Shown piece after piece: positions 55,679 through 63,789 of a stretch of DNA of 64,000 bases. Where the stretch lies: contig JAETSI010000003.1 of assembly GCA_021769725.1 (NCBI GenBank), positions 1 through 64,000 of the forward strand, given 5' to 3'. The stretch is from Oscillospiraceae bacterium. Its GTDB lineage: Bacteria > Bacillota > Clostridia > Oscillospirales > Ruminococcaceae. The notes under the pieces are model-generated. The model made no database searches. It was not told where the DNA came from and saw only the letters and a program-made list of their open reading frames with translations. The position numbers and the translations under genes are program-made. The stretch's first letter is position 1; every line of letters starts with the position of its first letter.

Positions 55679-58099
55679 TTAAAGCATTTTTATCAGTCTT
55701 TTTCTGAGCAAAACGAGATCAAAAGCATTTACCAGACCGTCACTATCCATATCGGCACGTGCGAACTGATCTTTAGTAAAAACTTCCATACCAAGGATAT
55801 AACGCTGCGTAAGTACAAGATCGGCAGCGGATACTATTCCGTCGTTGTTAATATCTCCTGCAAATTCCTCCTTTACTTCAAGAAGATTACAGAGCACGAT
55901 CTCTTTTTCCACACCGGAAGCAGAAGTTATTTTTACAGAATACTTTCCTTCGTCTGAACTTTCGGAAGCCTTAAATGTGTATTCTGCGCCGTTTGCGCCC
56001 GATATCGGCTTACCATTATGATACCATTGATATGTTGGGGATTCGAGAAGTGTAATTGATCTGAGAGTATATTCTTCTCCTTTGCACAGACGTATATCCG
56101 TTCCGGATGCATACGAAACGAAATCAGAGGGAACAGTACATTCGCCGCTCTTTGCTTCACCTGTCAATTTCCAATCATTGGCACTGTCCTGGAGGAATAT
56201 GCGAATGGATTTCAGAGATGTCCCGGAAGCAAGATCCATTGTTGTACCCAATGGGATCCGGAATTCCACAATATCGCCGTTCCACTTGCAGAGACATCCG
56301 TCGTGAGAGCCGTTGTTGAAATAAACGTAGCCATTACTTGCAAAGTATATCCAGTATGCACGGTCAGTTTCAGCGTTTTCTACTCGCAGATTATAAACCG
56401 GAGCATCTGCGCCTCCAGGAAGTATTCCCCTGATGTAGAAATACTTGTCATCGGCTGTCATGTACAGTTTGTCGCTGCCGTTTTCGGCGATAAGCGTATC
56501 CTCTGTCCATTCGCCGCTGAAAGATTCAAGACCGTCGGTGAACATCTGACCATTTATGGAATACATCCTGTCAGAGGGATCACTGCCCGAACGCAGGAAA
56601 TTATCTGTACCATGGCTGCTGGTTTCAGTTACATTGAACGAGCCGATATAGTTGGCTCCGAGGGCAGCGTGCCATACGCCGTCGTTGGCAAACTGCACAG
56701 AACGCTGACTTGTCTGGTATATGGAATTTTCGCCCATAGTCAATTTAATGTAGGCATTCCATTTGCCGGTCGGGAGACTGTCCGGAAGCTTTGCCAAAAT
56801 TTTTTCATCAGCAACAGTGCAGGAACGCCACTGATTAGGATCTATGCCGATTCCTGTTCTCATAAAGTTTCCATTCCGTTCAAGGAGAAGTTCAGCTTTA
56901 ACGTTTGGAATCGGATTGGCAAATCCGGTATTCTCAACTTTAAAATGAATATTGAGCTGACCACCCTGTTCTACATTTTCTGAAAGCTCTGACTTTCTCA
57001 GAACAAAACGGTATCCTATATGGTCACGGATAAACTGAAATACAGTCTGACCATAGTAAGCCGAATGATTGAAAGTTTTTTCAAGATCTGCGCTGTCATC
57101 AAATGTCTGATACAACGGTTGAGAAATATCGTTTTCTTTGCTGAACGTATAATTTTTATATAATTGAAAAATATTTGCGTTTATGTAGCTGAGATGTGTA
57201 TTGTACATTTCAGTTATTGCATTTTCCGGCAGATATGTATCGTATTTCTGCGCCCAGTCAAGATTGCCGGAAAACTCGCCGCCAAAATATGAATTTATCG
57301 TCTGGCTGCCGAGCCATTTTGTTTCTATGTCACGGTTTGCATATGTACCAAGGTCAGAATCGCTTCCCATATATCCGTCGTTGTAAAGACCTACTCTTGC
57401 GGCATCGCTGCCAGGTTCGGCTTGATAATCGGCAAGATCTTTCCGTTCTATGCCTGCCCATCTGGCAAAAGTATCAGGTGTTCTCACAGTAACCGGAACA
57501 GGGGAGGGGACACATTCCAGCATGGTATCAAGAACCTGTGCCTTGTAATCAACGGAGGTGTATTTGCCTCCGTGCTGTTCGCCCCATTTACCGACAAGTC
57601 CGCTTTCCACAAAGGCAAGGATATCCTTGTATTCTTCAAGCAGACCGCTGTCCCTGAGCTGACGAACATGATTAAGAGTCTGTTCAAATGTTGCAGGTTC
57701 GGGATTGTCAGCGCCTTCTGCATCATATCTGAGACGCAGTGCTATCATACAGCCGTTATTGCGTGCGTTTTCAAAAGTTTTGCGCCATGAATCAAAGAAA
57801 GCATCGTCGAGGTCATAATCAATCTTTTCTTCGTTCATACCGCTGGAGAATGCACCTATATCAATAAAAAAAAGCACAATATTACCTGTAGGACTATATA
57901 TCGGTGTGTTCCCGGGTTTGCAGACAGCCCATATGGTCTGCGTATATCCTGCGCCGGGATTATTTATCGTCCCTACAGATTCAGTATAGGAAATCCCGCT
58001 GTCTTTAAGAGAAGAGTTTTCCGAAGCTGCCGGGAGTATAGGAATAAATGTGCAGCAGAGAATTGAAGCAATTATTCTTGATATAAATTGTGATTTCAT
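55679..58099 (-). CDS. Secreted dockerin protein with DUF4874/DUF4832 domains
   Basis: 806 residues. Signal peptide (1-25), DUF4874-like N-domain (~30-220: 'NNPGAGYTQTIW', 'FENARNNGCMIALRLRYDAE', 'VESGLVGKWGEQHGGKYTS'), DUF4832-like part (~230-480, 'FQFIRDHIGYRFVLRKSELS' with a beta sandwich), a CBM-like region (~500-660), an Ig-like domain ('YQWYHNGKPISGANGAEYTF') and a dockerin with 'GDINNDGIVSAADL' and 'ADMDSDGLVNAFDL'. DUF4874/4832 proteins resemble TIM-barrel glycosidases; substrate unknown. The dockerin predicts cellulosome attachment. Confidence 0.8.
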   Translation of the reverse strand: MKSQFISRIIASILCCTFIPILPAASENSSLKDSGISYTESVGTINNPGAGYTQTIWAVCKPGNTPIYSPTGNIVLFFIDIGAFSSGMNEEKIDYDLDDAFFDSWRKTFENARNNGCMIALRLRYDAEGADNPEPATFEQTLNHVRQLRDSGLLEEYKDILAFVESGLVGKWGEQHGGKYTSVDYKAQVLDTMLECVPSPVPVTVRTPDTFARWAGIERKDLADYQAEPGSDAARVGLYNDGYMGSDSDLGTYANRDIETKWLGSQTINSYFGGEFSGNLDWAQKYDTYLPENAITEMYNTHLSYINANIFQLYKNYTFSKENDISQPLYQTFDDSADLEKTFNHSAYYGQTVFQFIRDHIGYRFVLRKSELSENVEQGGQLNIHFKVENTGFANPIPNVKAELLLERNGNFMRTGIGIDPNQWRSCTVADEKILAKLPDSLPTGKWNAYIKLTMGENSIYQTSQRSVQFANDGVWHAALGANYIGSFNVTETSSHGTDNFLRSGSDPSDRMYSINGQMFTDGLESFSGEWTEDTLIAENGSDKLYMTADDKYFYIRGILPGGADAPVYNLRVENAETDRAYWIYFASNGYVYFNNGSHDGCLCKWNGDIVEFRIPLGTTMDLASGTSLKSIRIFLQDSANDWKLTGEAKSGECTVPSDFVSYASGTDIRLCKGEEYTLRSITLLESPTYQWYHNGKPISGANGAEYTFKASESSDEGKYSVKITSASGVEKEIVLCNLLEVKEEFAGDINNDGIVSAADLVLTQRYILGMEVFTKDQFARADMDSDGLVNAFDLVLLRKRLIKML

Positions 58100-59156: not shown

Positions 59157-59744
59157 ATGAAGCACGTAAGTTATATAAAAGCAAGAGATGCCAGACCTCT
59201 TGTTACAACACTATTAGCTTTGGCAGTTATTGGAATCGCTGTGGGATCCGTATATCAGGCAGTACGCAGTCCGGGATCTTCAGCAAAGATACACCAGTAT
59301 TTTGCTCCTGTTTATAGAGGAACAGATCTGTTTGAGTATATGTGCCGTGGATTCGGAATATCGGTTTTGTTTCTGACAGCGGCATTTATTATGGGATTTT
59401 TTGCTCTGGGACAACCTGTGTGTTGTTTTCTTATGGCAGCAAGAGGATTCGGGATAGGTGCATCCGGAACGATGATGTATGCGCTTCACGGTACAAAAGC
59501 AGTTATGGGAATGCTGCTTTTCGTTCTGCCGAAAGCTGTTCTTTCTGTATTAATATGCGTTCTTGGCTTTCGGGAAGCAATGAAAGCTTCATCTTACACT
59601 CTAAGCGGCTGGACACCAGAAGGTTTTACTGAGCACAGAAAAACAGATTTCAAGCTCTACTGCATAAAATTTTTTGTTCTTATTATACTATCATTGATTA
59701 TATCAGCCGTGGATGCAGCAATAAATTTTGTATTCGCCGGTTGA
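59157..59744 (+). CDS. SpoIIM-like membrane protein
   Basis: 195 residues, five hydrophobic segments. The central 'FIMGFFALGQPVCCFLMAAR' and 'GFGIGASGTMMYALHG' resemble the SpoIIM core; the N-terminus is short and basic. In Bacillus SpoIIM works with SpoIID and SpoIIP in septal peptidoglycan removal during engulfment; distant relatives exist in non-sporulating bacteria. GAAAGGA-type ribosome site. Starts a short rightward run with the YesL-like gene. Assignment by pattern; a generic membrane protein is the alternative. Confidence 0.55.
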   Translation: MKHVSYIKARDARPLVTTLLALAVIGIAVGSVYQAVRSPGSSAKIHQYFAPVYRGTDLFEYMCRGFGISVLFLTAAFIMGFFALGQPVCCFLMAARGFGIGASGTMMYALHGTKAVMGMLLFVLPKAVLSVLICVLGFREAMKASSYTLSGWTPEGFTEHRKTDFKLYCIKFFVLIILSLIISAVDAAINFVFAG

Positions 59745-59766
59745 ACAGAACGGAGGAATATTAAAA

Positions 59767-60681
59767 TTGGCTCTATTTGATTACGAAAGCGCAGGAGTCG
59801 GGATTTCTAAAAATGCGCCAAAAAAGAAAGGTATAAAGCTGTTCGGGGATATTTTCTTCCGGAAATTCTGGAAGCTGATTGAAGTAAATATGCTCTATAG
59901 TTTGTTTTTTTTGCCGCTTATATTAGGATTTATGTCAATAGTATATCTGTACGATGTGAATTTAACGATCTCGCTTGTTGCAGCGATAGCTTGTCTTCTC
60001 TTTTTTATGGTTACCATAGGACCTGCAACTGCTGGCGTAATGAAAATAATGCGATGTTATCTGATTGAAAAGCACACATTTATAATTCGTGATTTTTTCA
60101 GGGCATTCAGAAGAAGTTTCAAAAAAGCGGCAATTATCGGCTTTATAGACTGTATGGTAATAATATCGGTTTTTGCCTCTTTAAAGGTTTATCCTATGAT
60201 GGCAGTGACATATAATTCCAAAATGCTTTATGTTCCGATGACCATAACACTTAGTTTTGCTCTCGTGGTCATGATGATGAATTACTTTATCTTTCTTATG
60301 CTTGTTGCAACCAATCTTTCACTTAAAAATCTCATAAAAAATTCATTTGCCCTTGCATTTATATCTCTGAAAGGCAATATAATAATTGTATTGACAACAA
60401 TCGTGACAATGTTCTTAATGCTTCTGCTATTTATCTATCTTACTCCGGTTTTCTGGATTTTGCTGCCATTTTTCCCTGCTGCATTTATTATGTTCGTGAC
60501 AGCATTCAATAGTTATCCGGTAATACAGAAATATGTCATAAATCCATATTACACAAGCATTGGCGAGATAAATCCGGAGCTGATCAGCGGCTCTGACGAA
60601 GAAACGCTTTTTGAAGATATGGGCGGAAAAGAAAAGCCAATTGAGAAAAGAAAAAAAGGAAAAGGAAAGAGAATTTCATAA
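59767..60681 (+). CDS. YesL-like (DUF624) membrane protein
   Basis: 304 residues. A TTG start is chosen because GGAGG lies 10 nt upstream and just after the preceding stop; an ATG 13 codons earlier overlaps that gene. Six TM helices; 'GDIFFRKFWKLIEVNMLYSL' and 'TIGPATAGVMKIMRCYLIEK' with 'FFRAFRRSFKKA' are the DUF624 pattern, a family often found by sugar ABC transporters but of unknown function. Lys/Arg-rich C-terminal tail. Terminator follows. Confidence 0.75.
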   Translation: MALFDYESAGVGISKNAPKKKGIKLFGDIFFRKFWKLIEVNMLYSLFFLPLILGFMSIVYLYDVNLTISLVAAIACLLFFMVTIGPATAGVMKIMRCYLIEKHTFIIRDFFRAFRRSFKKAAIIGFIDCMVIISVFASLKVYPMMAVTYNSKMLYVPMTITLSFALVVMMMNYFIFLMLVATNLSLKNLIKNSFALAFISLKGNIIIVLTTIVTMFLMLLLFIYLTPVFWILLPFFPAAFIMFVTAFNSYPVIQKYVINPYYTSIGEINPELISGSDEETLFEDMGGKEKPIEKRKKGKGKRIS

Positions 60682-60763: not shown

Positions 60764-60792
60764 TTGACATTTGGAGAATTATGTATTATAAT
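60764..60792 (+). promoter_or_regulatory. Consensus promoter ~800 bp before the M15-like gene
   Basis: TTGACA (60764-60769), 17-bp spacer and TATAAT (60787-60792). The next rightward gene starts at 61595, so it drives either a very long leader, a non-coding RNA, or a short gene not recognised. Confidence 0.8.
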
Positions 60793-60806
60793 AATAACAG
60801 ATATAT

Positions 60807-61490
60807 AAAACAAAAGTAGAACACTTAAAAAGAAGGAAAACAAATCGATAATACTGTTTCAATCAGACGCAGATGTTTTTCTTTTGGTTAAATTAACTGA
60901 TTATTATTCTGATGTCCTTATAACTACCGAGCGGTTACGGTAAAAGATGTAATCTGATGTGATGTGCATGGACTTTTGCATACACTGACGACATCGCAGG
61001 GAATGAAGATGTAACAGTTAATTTAATTGTGATGAGCATAGGCGTCTTTGTTGCATATATCCGTAATAAAAAATGCAGCATTGTATTAATACTGATATTA
61101 TTAACTATAAAAAATGTAATTTGTCTGTTCTCGTACAGAGATACATACATCATATGCTTTTTTAAAAATTGATGATAAAAAGTAATCTTACAGCTGTAAA
61201 GATGTTAATTATTATTGTCTTGCAGAAAAACGGGATATCTTACGGGAGGCTTTCGGACAAGGAAGAACCGAAATTGGCAGGAATGTTGTCTGCATTACTG
61301 CAATATATCCTAATTTTCGATTTATGGGGATAATAGTTCACGTTAAGAAATAATATGGATAATTGTGCTTCAATCAAGTGAACAGTGAAAATGTGTAGAA
61401 AAAACAGGGAACGATAAAACAAAAAAGTAGAACACAAAACAAGGAAACGAACAAAAACAAATAAAAAGAAGACAAAACAAAACAAATCGA
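60807..61490 (+). other. Long leader region with duplicated A-rich boxes
   Basis: AAAACAAAAGTAGAACAC (60807-60824) and AAAACAAATCGA (60837-60848) recur in the same order as AAAACAAAAAAGTAGAACAC (about 61416-61435) and AAAACAAATCGA (61479-61490). The ~570 bp between them has no convincing gene; one rightward frame reads like a short membrane peptide ('VTVNLIVMSIGVFVAYI') but lacks a start and ribosome site. It may be a duplication with an insert, a structured leader, or an unannotated RNA. I recognise no riboswitch. Confidence 0.45.
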
Positions 61491-61594
61491 CATCATGGAA
61501 TGACATAAAGAAAGAAAAAAGAAATAGCGGTCAAACCGCAAATCCGTAAAAACGGAATCAAGTGCAGAACAAAATTATCGGAGGATATAAAATA

Positions 61595-62563
61595 ATGGCA
61601 AAAAGACGGCTTAGATGGAGTCGTGTCTTTATTGCAATGTTTGGACTGTCAGTATCTATATTTGCAGTTGACGGACTCCGCAGAGATTTTTTCAAAACAA
61701 CAAGCAGCATTACTGTTGACGGTGATTTTGTTGAAAAGGATTCCGCCGGGAACCATGAAAATAAACAGAAAGAAGATATGGTTTCTTTTGGAAATGGCAC
61801 ACAGCCAACTACAGTTTTTGAAGGGGTTCAGAATCTCGGCTATTCAGAACTAAGCGTTCCGCCTTCAAAACTTAATACAGGAACGCTCTCTATTATAAAC
61901 GACGAACATCCTGCTGACGGATCTGCCCCATTTGGCATGGTCGGTTTGCTTGAAAATAAAAGTGAAGATTACTCACTGATGGACGAATCCGTGAAATTAA
62001 ATGAGGAAGCTGCTGCTGCATTGAACGGCATGATGGCGGATTATCATAAAGCTACAGGACTTACGGATTTCGTTGTATATGGAACAAATGAAACCTTCAC
62101 CGGAGAAGGATCGTTGTGTCCTGAGTATTTTCCTGAGTCAATCACGGGAAATACTATAGATCTTGCCGTAACTGCTTACGGTACACCCGTTGCTTTTGAC
62201 GGGAATGATGCAGAAGGCTGGATCGTAGATAACTGTTATAATTATGGATACATAGTAAGATATCCAAGAGGGAAAGAAACTTTAACAGGTCATTCTTTCT
62301 GTCCGTGGCATCTTCGTTATGTAGGTCAGCCTCATTCTGCCTTAATGGCAGAAAAAGGGTTATGCCTTGAGGAATATATTGAATTTCTAAAAGGCTATAG
62401 TTATGAAAACAAGTTGATTTATTCTTTTAATGATGTAGAATACGAAATTTATACATCGAACGCAGCAAGCGAAGCTGCTTCTGCTCGTGTTCCTGTTTCT
62501 GGAAATTATACGATCTCCGGCGACAATATTGGAACATATATTATTACAGTGAAGAAAAACTGA
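61595..62563 (+). CDS. M15 (VanY-like) D,D-carboxypeptidase homologue lacking catalytic residues
   Basis: 322 residues. N-terminal basic segment and one TM (~8-24), a ~95-residue linker, and a C-terminal M15 domain. The scaffold is clear: 'WIVDNCYNYGYIVRYPRG' and 'LTGHSFCPWHLRYVG' align with VanY/YodJ. In active enzymes the first zinc His lies in SxHxxGxAxD; here this reads 'ESITGNTID', with Ser (182) for His. The catalytic Glu of ExWH is Cys (236) in 'CPWH'. Asp 189 and His 239 remain. Zinc hydrolysis of D-Ala-D-Ala is therefore unlikely; a peptidoglycan-binding or regulatory role is inferred. GGAGG ten nt before the ATG. Confidence 0.8.
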   Translation: MAKRRLRWSRVFIAMFGLSVSIFAVDGLRRDFFKTTSSITVDGDFVEKDSAGNHENKQKEDMVSFGNGTQPTTVFEGVQNLGYSELSVPPSKLNTGTLSIINDEHPADGSAPFGMVGLLENKSEDYSLMDESVKLNEEAAAALNGMMADYHKATGLTDFVVYGTNETFTGEGSLCPEYFPESITGNTIDLAVTAYGTPVAFDGNDAEGWIVDNCYNYGYIVRYPRGKETLTGHSFCPWHLRYVGQPHSALMAEKGLCLEEYIEFLKGYSYENKLIYSFNDVEYEIYTSNAASEAASARVPVSGNYTISGDNIGTYIITVKKN

Positions 62564-62583
62564 ACGAGTGTTAAGTTGATTTT

Positions 62584-62609
62584 AGCCAGTCTGCGGACTG
62601 GCTTTTTTG
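62584..62609 (+). terminator. Terminator between the two carboxypeptidase-like genes
   Basis: AGCCAGTC (62584-62591), TGCG loop, GACTGGCT (62596-62603) and a T run. Confidence 0.9.
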
Positions 62610-62655
62610 TAATATCATAGAATCTTGTCTCATATAAATTATTGAGGTGATTTAT

Positions 62656-63789
62656 ATGAAAAAGATTTTACTTTTCTTTGCATGTATGTTTTTTTGTGGA
62701 ACATCTGCCGTTCCGCAAGGTAAAAAAGAAGAAACTATACCGCTTCCTGCCTCATATGTTCTTATGGAATGCCGTACCGGAACAGTTCTGCAAGAGCACA
62801 ATATGCACGAAAAAATGAACGCAGGATATCTTTCAAAACTGATGTCGCTGCTTTTGATTGCGGAGGATATTGATACAGGAGAATATACATTAGACACAGA
62901 GTTGACTGCGTCTCAAACGGTTTTGGGAATGAAGGGCTCAATTGTCTGGCTGGAAGCAGGAGACAAAATGTCAGTTGATGAACTTTTGAAAAGTGTTATC
63001 ATAGGCAATGCTAATGATGCACTTGCAGTTCTTGCTGAACGCTCATGCGGTGACATTGATTCATTCGTTATGGAAATGAATAGTCGTGCCTTCGATCTTG
63101 GACTGCGTGATACAGCTTTTTTCTCGCCATACGGATTTTATGACGAACGTGAATACACCACTGCTTATGACATTGCAGTTATCTGCACTGAACTTAAAAA
63201 ATATGATTTTTTGTCTCCCTACTTCAAGACATGGCGTGATTTTGTTGCAAATGAACAGGTCGAACTTGTAAATGAAAATACATTATCCCGGACTTATCAG
63301 CGACACTGTGGCTTTAAGGCGTCTCACTCTGATAATTCAGGATATTGTATTGCAGAATGCGGAAGTTCTGATGACGGAACAGCTTTTATTGCGGTTGTAC
63401 TTGGTGCGGAAAATGATGATGTTTCTTTTGGAAATGCAAAACGTCTTATTAATTCCGGATTCAGCGACTATAAAGTTACCGATTCTTATTTTCCGGACGA
63501 AATGATAAAACCGGTTAAGGTAAAAAACGGAGTTGAGTCAGCTGTTGAACTGGGACTTGCAGAACAGGGCAGTATTGTTGTGCCAAGAGGTACTTCGTCT
63601 CTCAGTATGGTGAGCGTTATTCCGGATTATCTTGATGCACCTCTTTCAAAAGGCGACCGTGTGGGCAGAGCAGCTGTGTATAATGGTAAGAATCTTGTTT
63701 TTGAAACGGACATTATCGTTAAAAATGATGTAAATAAACTTACATTTTGCTTTTTATTAAGAAAAGTCTTGTTAAATATAACAGAATAG
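62656..63789 (+). CDS. S11 (DacF-like) D,D-carboxypeptidase homologue lacking catalytic residues
   Basis: 377 residues: signal peptide (1-19), S11 domain (~30-250) and a PBP5-type C-terminal beta domain with a final hydrophobic/amphipathic helix. The fold is clear ('SYVLMECRTGTVLQEHNMHE', 'LGLRDTAFFSPYGFYDE', 'SGYCIAE'). All three active-site motifs are changed: SxxK reads 'YLSK' (Tyr 58 for the nucleophile Ser, Lys 61 kept), SxN reads 'NAN' (118-120) and KTG reads 'KAS' (221-223). It should not be a working penicillin-binding protein. The ATG after GAGGTG is used. It lies ~90 bp after an M15-like gene that is likewise degenerate. Confidence 0.85.
   Translation: MKKILLFFACMFFCGTSAVPQGKKEETIPLPASYVLMECRTGTVLQEHNMHEKMNAGYLSKLMSLLLIAEDIDTGEYTLDTELTASQTVLGMKGSIVWLEAGDKMSVDELLKSVIIGNANDALAVLAERSCGDIDSFVMEMNSRAFDLGLRDTAFFSPYGFYDEREYTTAYDIAVICTELKKYDFLSPYFKTWRDFVANEQVELVNENTLSRTYQRHCGFKASHSDNSGYCIAECGSSDDGTAFIAVVLGAENDDVSFGNAKRLINSGFSDYKVTDSYFPDEMIKPVKVKNGVESAVELGLAEQGSIVVPRGTSSLSMVSVIPDYLDAPLSKGDRVGRAAVYNGKNLVFETDIIVKNDVNKLTFCFLLRKVLLNITE

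Follow-up and report, generated by a model that had tools for sequence, protein, structure and literature searches.

Rumen and gut relatives of Ruminococcus flavefaciens carry two neighboring genes for homologs of D,D-carboxypeptidases, one of family M15 and one of family S11, that have lost their active sites and are both maintained under purifying selection. The account toward which we lean, with modest confidence, is that the S11 protein is a mother-cell cortex D,D-carboxypeptidase turned non-cutting binder or regulator, and that the M15 protein has a separate history together with another S11 homolog (S11b), the adjacency of the two genes being mostly accidental. The locus spans positions 61595–63789 of the window, i.e., the whole 64,000-nucleotide stretch of DNA analyzed, and both reading frames are open:

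61595..62563, + strand, pseudo-M15 (VanY/VanXY-like), from ORF, Pfam, alignment, and model
62656..63789, + strand, pseudo-S11 (PBP5-type D,D-carboxypeptidase homolog), likewise from ORF, Pfam, alignment, and model

The M15 protein, probably a type II membrane protein, consists of an N-terminal helix, a low-confidence linker, the M15 domain, and a C-terminal beta part, and the S11 protein of a probable signal peptide, the S11 domain, a PBP5_C domain, and a C-terminal helix. Just upstream of the locus lie genes for a SpoIIM-like membrane protein (59157–59744; under its curated cut-off, 23.5 bits vs 26.9) and a DUF624/MusI-like membrane protein (59728–60681). On the reverse strand, 55679–58099 encodes a large secreted protein ending, by eye, in dockerin-like repeats, consistent with a cellulosome-bearing Ruminococcus.

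Loss of both active sites under purifying selection

The S11 protein belongs to its fold family by matches to Pfam Peptidase_S11 (E 6e-40, 137.6 bits, gathering cut-off 27.6) and PBP5_C (46 bits, cut-off 21.2), and its AlphaFold model (pLDDT 88) predicts a PBP6/PBP5 fold, with E. coli PBP6 as the best structural match. All three catalytic hydroxyls are gone (the Ser nucleophile, the Ser of SxN, and the Thr of KTG), and the Lys of SxxK, the Lys of KTG, and the Asn of SxN are kept:

62827..62838, + strand, Tyr58-Leu-Ser-Lys61 replacing SxTK, Lys kept (genus and family alignments)
63007..63015, + strand, Asn118-Ala-Asn120 replacing SxN (27/27 genus rows; in the degenerate clade 48/51 NAN and 3 NAG)
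63316..63327, + strand, Lys221-Ala-Ser-His224 replacing KTG(T), Lys kept (genus and family alignments)

The M15 protein matches Pfam VanY (E 4e-10, 40 bits, gathering cut-off 25), which places it in the M15B fold family, and its model (pLDDT 80) is predicted to resemble VanXYg (4f78) most closely. Its SxH motif reads PES (Ser182) and its ExPWH motif CPWH (Cys236), with the zinc ligands Asp189 and His239 remaining:

62138..62140, + strand, Ser182 replacing the zinc-binding His (no His in 30 genus rows, none in 67)
62300..62302, + strand, Cys236 replacing the catalytic Glu (Cys in 28/30 and 65/67 rows, never Glu)

These losses hold across the genus. A first set of 31 M15 and 29 S11 ORFs was found with the window's proteins in the window's genome and its genus-mates, and counts use only the rows covering each motif (30 for M15; for S11, 28 at the nucleophile, 27 at SxN, and 27 at KTG). 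Within it, the S11 nucleophile place is Tyr in 26 rows and Phe in 2, and an intact SxxK, SxN, and KTG occur in 0/28, 0/27, and 0/27 rows, respectively. At the zinc His place of the M15, Ser (23), Asn (3), Arg (2), Cys (1), and Asp (1) are found, and at the catalytic Glu place Cys (28), Val (1), and Ser (1). A larger, overlapping set comprised the window, one further locus, and the best 80 of 204 loci (72 titled Ruminococcus), its M15 rows being picked with a pseudo-M15 profile. There, KTG is found in 0/81 S11 rows, His224 in 81/81, and the nucleophile place holds Tyr in 75, Phe in 2, and Trp, Cys, Ser, and Ala in 1 each; NAN in 81/81 rows is no evidence since the search pattern held GNANDA and the count is thus true by construction. 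His and Glu are each found in 0/67 M15 rows, Asp189 and His239 being kept, and the full set of active M15B residues (SxHxxGxAxD and ExxH) was seen in 0/30 and 0/67 rows.

Both genes are constrained, albeit less so than their neighbors: the median dN/dS (Nei-Gojobori, pairs with dS 0.1–1.5 and >72% identity) was 0.116 for S11 (95 pairs) and 0.114 for M15 (31 pairs), i.e., ~0.115 for both, compared to 0.040 for pgi, 0.033 for der, and 0.083 for DUF512. The first-pass annotation had proposed two maintained pseudoenzymes with well-kept folds and no stops. Every substitution it named is present (Ser182 and Cys236; Tyr58, NAN, and KAS), both folds are kept in the AlphaFold models, and the combination of lost catalytic residues and purifying selection bears out the proposal for both proteins. 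It did not remark on the retained lysines and Asn of the S11 motifs, nor did it pick up the connection to sporulation described below. Orthologs with normal catalytic residues, which it had named as the refuting case, were not seen among the covered genus rows, and a recent decay is ruled out by the genus-wide losses and low dN/dS.

Of 99 genus genomes searched, 89 had an S11 match better than 1e-40 and 92 an M15 match better than 1e-80. One of the 89 (G352:C119:151338-152466) is broken by several stops, indicating that the S11 gene can be lost in the genus, and the S11 matches of G012 and G377 hold one stop each. The window's genome also carries three other S11 genes and three other M15 genes, two of the latter with intact motifs and the third, on contig C46, without a pattern match.

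A pgi-linked S11 locus

In the genus, the S11 gene precedes pgi, DUF512, and der, and the same S11-pgi-DUF512-der order was found in another family of the order (L096), with intact SITK/SAN/KTG motifs. Across the family, pgi was recognized beside S11 in 52/58 rows. Among 52 family genera read, 23 had an intact site, 26 NAN or NAG, and 3 a partly lost site (L219, L236, and L237), although the degenerate share is probably overstated since these 52 of 95 searched genera were the top of a degenerate-profile list. Degeneracy confined to the genus could be rejected: Asn replaced the Ser of SxN in 51 of 80 rows used for a tree. An order-wide search yielded 28 loci read, of which 17 came from other families (14 of them from one family); all 17 were intact, i.e., no degenerate S11 was found outside the family among these matches, nor in L096, L097, and L100.

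The tree of these 80 rows (quick and unrooted, with motif columns removed) required at least four changes between intact and degenerate forms. All 29 SAN rows were grouped to the same side of a branch with SH-aLRT 96, which allows the change to NAN to be a single event, and one old replacement of SAN by NAN can unite most of the degenerate forms. Within the NAN clade (51 rows), the lysines of SxxK and KTG are each kept in 51/51 rows and the Asn of SxN in 48/51, the Thr of KTG has become Ala in 44/51, and a His follows the place of KTG in 32/51. Its nucleophile place drifts over T, S, Y, H, A, F, and V, with Ser in 10/51. Outside this clade, the partly lost pgi-linked genes read KYG (L219:4027-5226), KTA (L236:4077-5267), and KAC with Gln replacing the SxxK Lys (L237:4023-5207), and represent early steps of a comparable loss, each reached independently.

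A sporulation-type promoter and co-absence with spoIVA

Two lines of evidence link the S11 gene to sporulation, the first of which is its promoter:

62612..62639, + strand, sigma-E-type promoter of the S11 gene, with ATA at 62612–62614 and the −10 CATATAAAT at 62631–62639

An excerpt of PMC3789822 gives ATA as the −35 of sigma-E, AC as that of sigma-K, and CATATTAT as a mother-cell −10; with ATA rather than AC at the −35, the S11 promoter is of the sigma-E rather than the sigma-K type. A CATA box at −50..−18 of S11 was found in 20/26 genus rows (500 letter shuffles: mean 2.7, max 9), six rows being without one, and in 43 of 70 family and order rows, of which 3 come from other families and 3 repeat a genome (shuffles: mean 7.85, max 15). 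Over −55..−18, CATA occurred in 20/26 genus and 38/58 other rows vs 25/78 rows of a pgi control, where 12 of the 25 were CATA followed by the ribosome-site word TGGAG. When the 20 genus rows were anchored on CATA, positions −19 to −17 gave A 13, T 19, and A or T 18.

The second line is phylogenetic. A spoIVA match was obtained for 272 of 297 family genomes, 268 of them over the curated cut-off, and S11 was missing in 20 of the 25 genomes without spoIVA vs 7 of the 272 with it (Fisher p 7e-21; absence was counted by eye as a best E above 1e-40, and the test ignores relatedness and assembly gaps). Joint absence also occurred inside genera, i.e., g89 (G123, G192, and G272), g94 (G128, G276, and G304), and g105 (G200), both genes being kept by the remaining members searched in each genus. 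Standing against the link are five of the 25 family genomes without spoIVA, which have S11 (G179, G205, G217, G322, and G338); seven further exceptions have spoIVA without S11 (G104, G110, G134, G226, G246, G266, and G288). The marks of a DacB/DacF-type gene, absence along with sporulation genes and a sporulation promoter, were both found for S11, at the family level and by motif only.

At the genus level, profile searches of the 99 genomes did not discriminate between S11 presence with and without spoIVA. A spoIVA match was found in 97 genomes, both genomes without it (G365 and G387) keep both pseudoenzyme genes, and 10 of the 97 lack an S11 match better than 1e-40, at least two of these being cut by contig ends. 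That members of the window's genus sporulate is our inference, against which stands the entry for R. albus 7 in part of Galperin 2012 (PMC3533761), a Spo0A+ strain given there as not forming spores and as missing ten spore genes; R. bromii, for its part, does form spores according to a portion of PMC5814915. Degenerate S11 loci are known from g89 (L218), g94 (L205, L207, L208, and L209), and g105 (L214). Site loss as a mere by-product of lost sporulation is not supported, since the genomes with degenerate forms in these three genera and in the window's genus have spoIVA.

A proposed path from cortex enzyme to non-cutting binder

Taken together, the S11 gene would be the genus's copy of a pgi-linked Ruminococcaceae D,D-carboxypeptidase. 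Its promoter and phylogenetic profile suggest expression in the sporulating mother cell, driven by sigma-E, and the protein would presumably be exported into the compartment in which cortex assembly takes place. In the clade that includes Ruminococcus, this protein lost its catalytic hydroxyls in place and retained both active-site lysines and the Asn pair. Because the latter are kept, it may still bind D-Ala-D-Ala stems or cortex peptidoglycan and leave them uncut; in penicillin-binding proteins (PBPs), these pocket groups are the ones that would contact a peptide carboxylate. Conversely, the Tyr at the nucleophile place could fill the pocket, which speaks against ligand binding.

A candidate for what such a binder might act upon is an active S11 paralog (L335:4294-5454; MASTTK/SGN/KTG), one of the three other S11 genes of the genome. 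Upstream of it lie scpA, scpB, and a gene resembling ytfJ, whose match is below cut-off, and a pseudouridine synthase gene follows. The paralog has a CATA box in all three of the five genomes for which upstream DNA was read. The dacB gene of Bacillus subtilis is found near scpAB and rluB, and from this gene order we take the paralog to be the DacB counterpart. The pseudo-S11 does not share the dacB neighborhood: it adjoins pgi, and the scpAB region holds another S11. As a binder or competitor, the pseudo-S11 could set where or how far the active paralog trims cortex stems. More specifically, and only as an unlikely refinement, the NAN/Lys/Lys site would read uncut D-Ala-D-Ala stems or cortex muropeptides, and the masking of these, or recruitment of the paralog, would set cortex cross-linking, amounting to PBP control of a non-enzymatic kind across a whole clade of the Ruminococcaceae.

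It is similarly improbable that the S11 is structural only, its fold and C-terminal domain acting as a scaffold and its pocket lysines serving stability. B. subtilis SpoIIQ, which part of PMC4982068 presents as an inactive LytM protein with Ser for His, offers a precedent for such a scaffold, against which stands the retention of the old-site lysines and Asn-Ala-Asn in all or nearly all of the 51 rows of the NAN clade.

A separate history for the M15 protein

The M15 protein, by comparison, is best read as a membrane-anchored vegetative pseudo-VanY that would derive from an S11b-M15 operon. S11b (SLTK, SGA, and KTG) lies directly upstream of M15 in 16/30 genus genomes read, mostly behind a sigma-A-type promoter (by eye). 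In all 28 rows (L065:5701-6789 and 27 others), its SxN place reads SGA, except for SGG in L277 and L278, so that the Asn is lost, with SxTK and KTG intact. S11b also precedes M15 genes lacking the zinc His and Glu in genera g113, g29, g43, and g44 (nine loci):

L277–L280, L282, L283, L285, L288, and L296, S11b and pseudo-M15 loci in four other genera

This sharing makes S11b and pseudo-M15 look like an older association. No M15 was found at the pgi-linked S11 loci of the same four genera. In the window, S11b is gone, leaving what looks like its promoter before M15 alone:

60764..60792, + strand, sigma-A-type promoter TTGACA-17-TATAAT (12/12 consensus matches; a scan gave 20 sites, 17.4 expected)
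60793..61594, + strand, stretch of ~800 nt before M15, the place of S11b in relatives, with no recognized gene

This promoter was probably inherited from the lost S11b gene. Of the 14 S11b-less loci, 13 carry a TTGACA/TTGACT-17-TATAAT element between −86 and −945 nt of M15 (the 14th is cut short), and tblastn matches to the S11b N-terminal part remain in 6; for the window, the promoter is kept but 60793–61594 gave no such match. A short AAAGTAGAACAC stretch occurs twice within this interval (by eye). No Rfam match at gathering score was obtained for structured RNA anywhere in the window, including this M15 leader.

Decay of M15 proteins probably happened more than once, since Tyr takes the place of the zinc His in other paralogs of the family (L289, L291, L292, L294, and L298), whose motif reads SDYHTG or TEYHTG. 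As to the present role of the pseudo-M15, stem-peptide binding in the envelope and cysteine- or metal-based sensing are both candidates. The second would involve three conserved cysteines, the first of which is:

62114..62116, + strand, Cys174, one of three conserved cysteines (174, 214, and 236), all three in 62/67 rows

That these cysteines bind another metal or form a disulfide, making the protein a redox or metal sensor, fits their joint presence in the genus and the retention of Asp189 and His239. We nevertheless consider it distinctly unlikely, given that Cys214 also occurs in the three M15 rows that retain both His and Glu (L287, L293, and L297), and that pseudo-M15 rows of other genera lack Cys174 and Cys236.

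The first-pass annotation had also suggested that the two proteins form a peptidoglycan-sensing or enzyme-regulating pair, and here the genus-wide comparison did not follow it. Among 28 genus genomes with both genes (by eye), the tandem arrangement occurs in 21, and six of the seven genomes without an M15 match better than 1e-80 also lack S11, as a dedicated complex or sensing pair might predict; this joint absence may represent one deletion or one assembly gap. The remaining genomes include two head-to-head cases, with S11 facing an S11b-M15 unit, four with the genes apart, on separate contigs and away from their ends, and one undecided. The promoters differ, sigma-A-type before M15 and sigma-E-type before S11, and a terminator stands between the genes:

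62584..62603, + strand, intrinsic terminator between M15 and S11, with like stems in 16/20 tandem gaps (the 21st tandem locus, G017, has a truncated S11 and is not counted)

An operon or pair is hence not supported. Since, in addition, pseudo-M15 goes with S11b and not with the pgi-linked S11 in four other genera, and degenerate S11 is far more widespread than its adjacency to M15, a dedicated complex of the two appears very unlikely.

Relation to known systems

The nearest known counterparts of the S11 are the sporulation D,D-carboxypeptidases DacB (PBP5*) and DacF, which share its S11 and PBP5_C fold, probable signal peptide, and sporulation-type promoter. In excerpts, dacF is given as a sigma-G gene of Clostridioides difficile (PMC3789822) and dacB is placed among the genes of stages III–VI (PMC3533761). 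Unlike these, the pseudo-S11 lacks the three catalytic hydroxyls and is pgi-linked, outside the scpAB region. That it still catalyzes through a re-made site (Lys61, Asn118, Asn120, Lys221, and His224), possibly hydrolyzing another amide or ester, is highly improbable: over 51 rows the lysines never vary and the Asn pair rarely does, with His224 constant in the genus, but the nucleophile place has no conserved hydroxyl or thiol and, clade-wide, the His is limited to the 32 rows noted above. For the M15, the VanY/VanXY-G D,D-peptidases (M15B) share the Pfam VanY domain and a predicted VanXYg 4f78-like fold, from which the pseudo-M15 differs by the absence of the zinc His and catalytic Glu. A vancomycin-resistance gene was rejected, all matches falling below the curated cut-offs, and those to the NCBIfam vanY and vanXY models far below (116.2 vs 425 and 88.7 vs 500 bits).

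Sporulation pseudoenzymes are already known from other folds. As presented in part of PMC4982068, SpoIIQ is likewise an inactive sporulation protein with a peptidoglycan-hydrolase fold and Ser at the zinc His place; it differs in its LytM fold and in being a forespore protein with a known partner, SpoIIIAH. The C. difficile pseudoproteases CspA and CspC, according to an excerpt of PMC6636752, are similarly spore pseudoenzymes of one lineage beside an active paralog, but have a subtilisin fold and act in germination signaling. Word searches of the open-access literature found no inactive sporulation S11, and no inactive VanY among the matches listed.

The series from intact (SAN/KTG) through partial (L219, L236, and L237) to fully lost sites (NAN/KAx) at one synteny-held S11 locus offers a clean system for asking what D,D-carboxypeptidases do besides cutting. 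Judged from these sequences, the S11 looks like a spore-formation protein that was still needed after its enzyme activity ceased. According to part of PMC5814915, sporulation was considered absent from many of the predominant gut species. If our account of the S11 is true, a low-mass PBP would have been repurposed without its chemistry across many gut and rumen genera, in sporulation.
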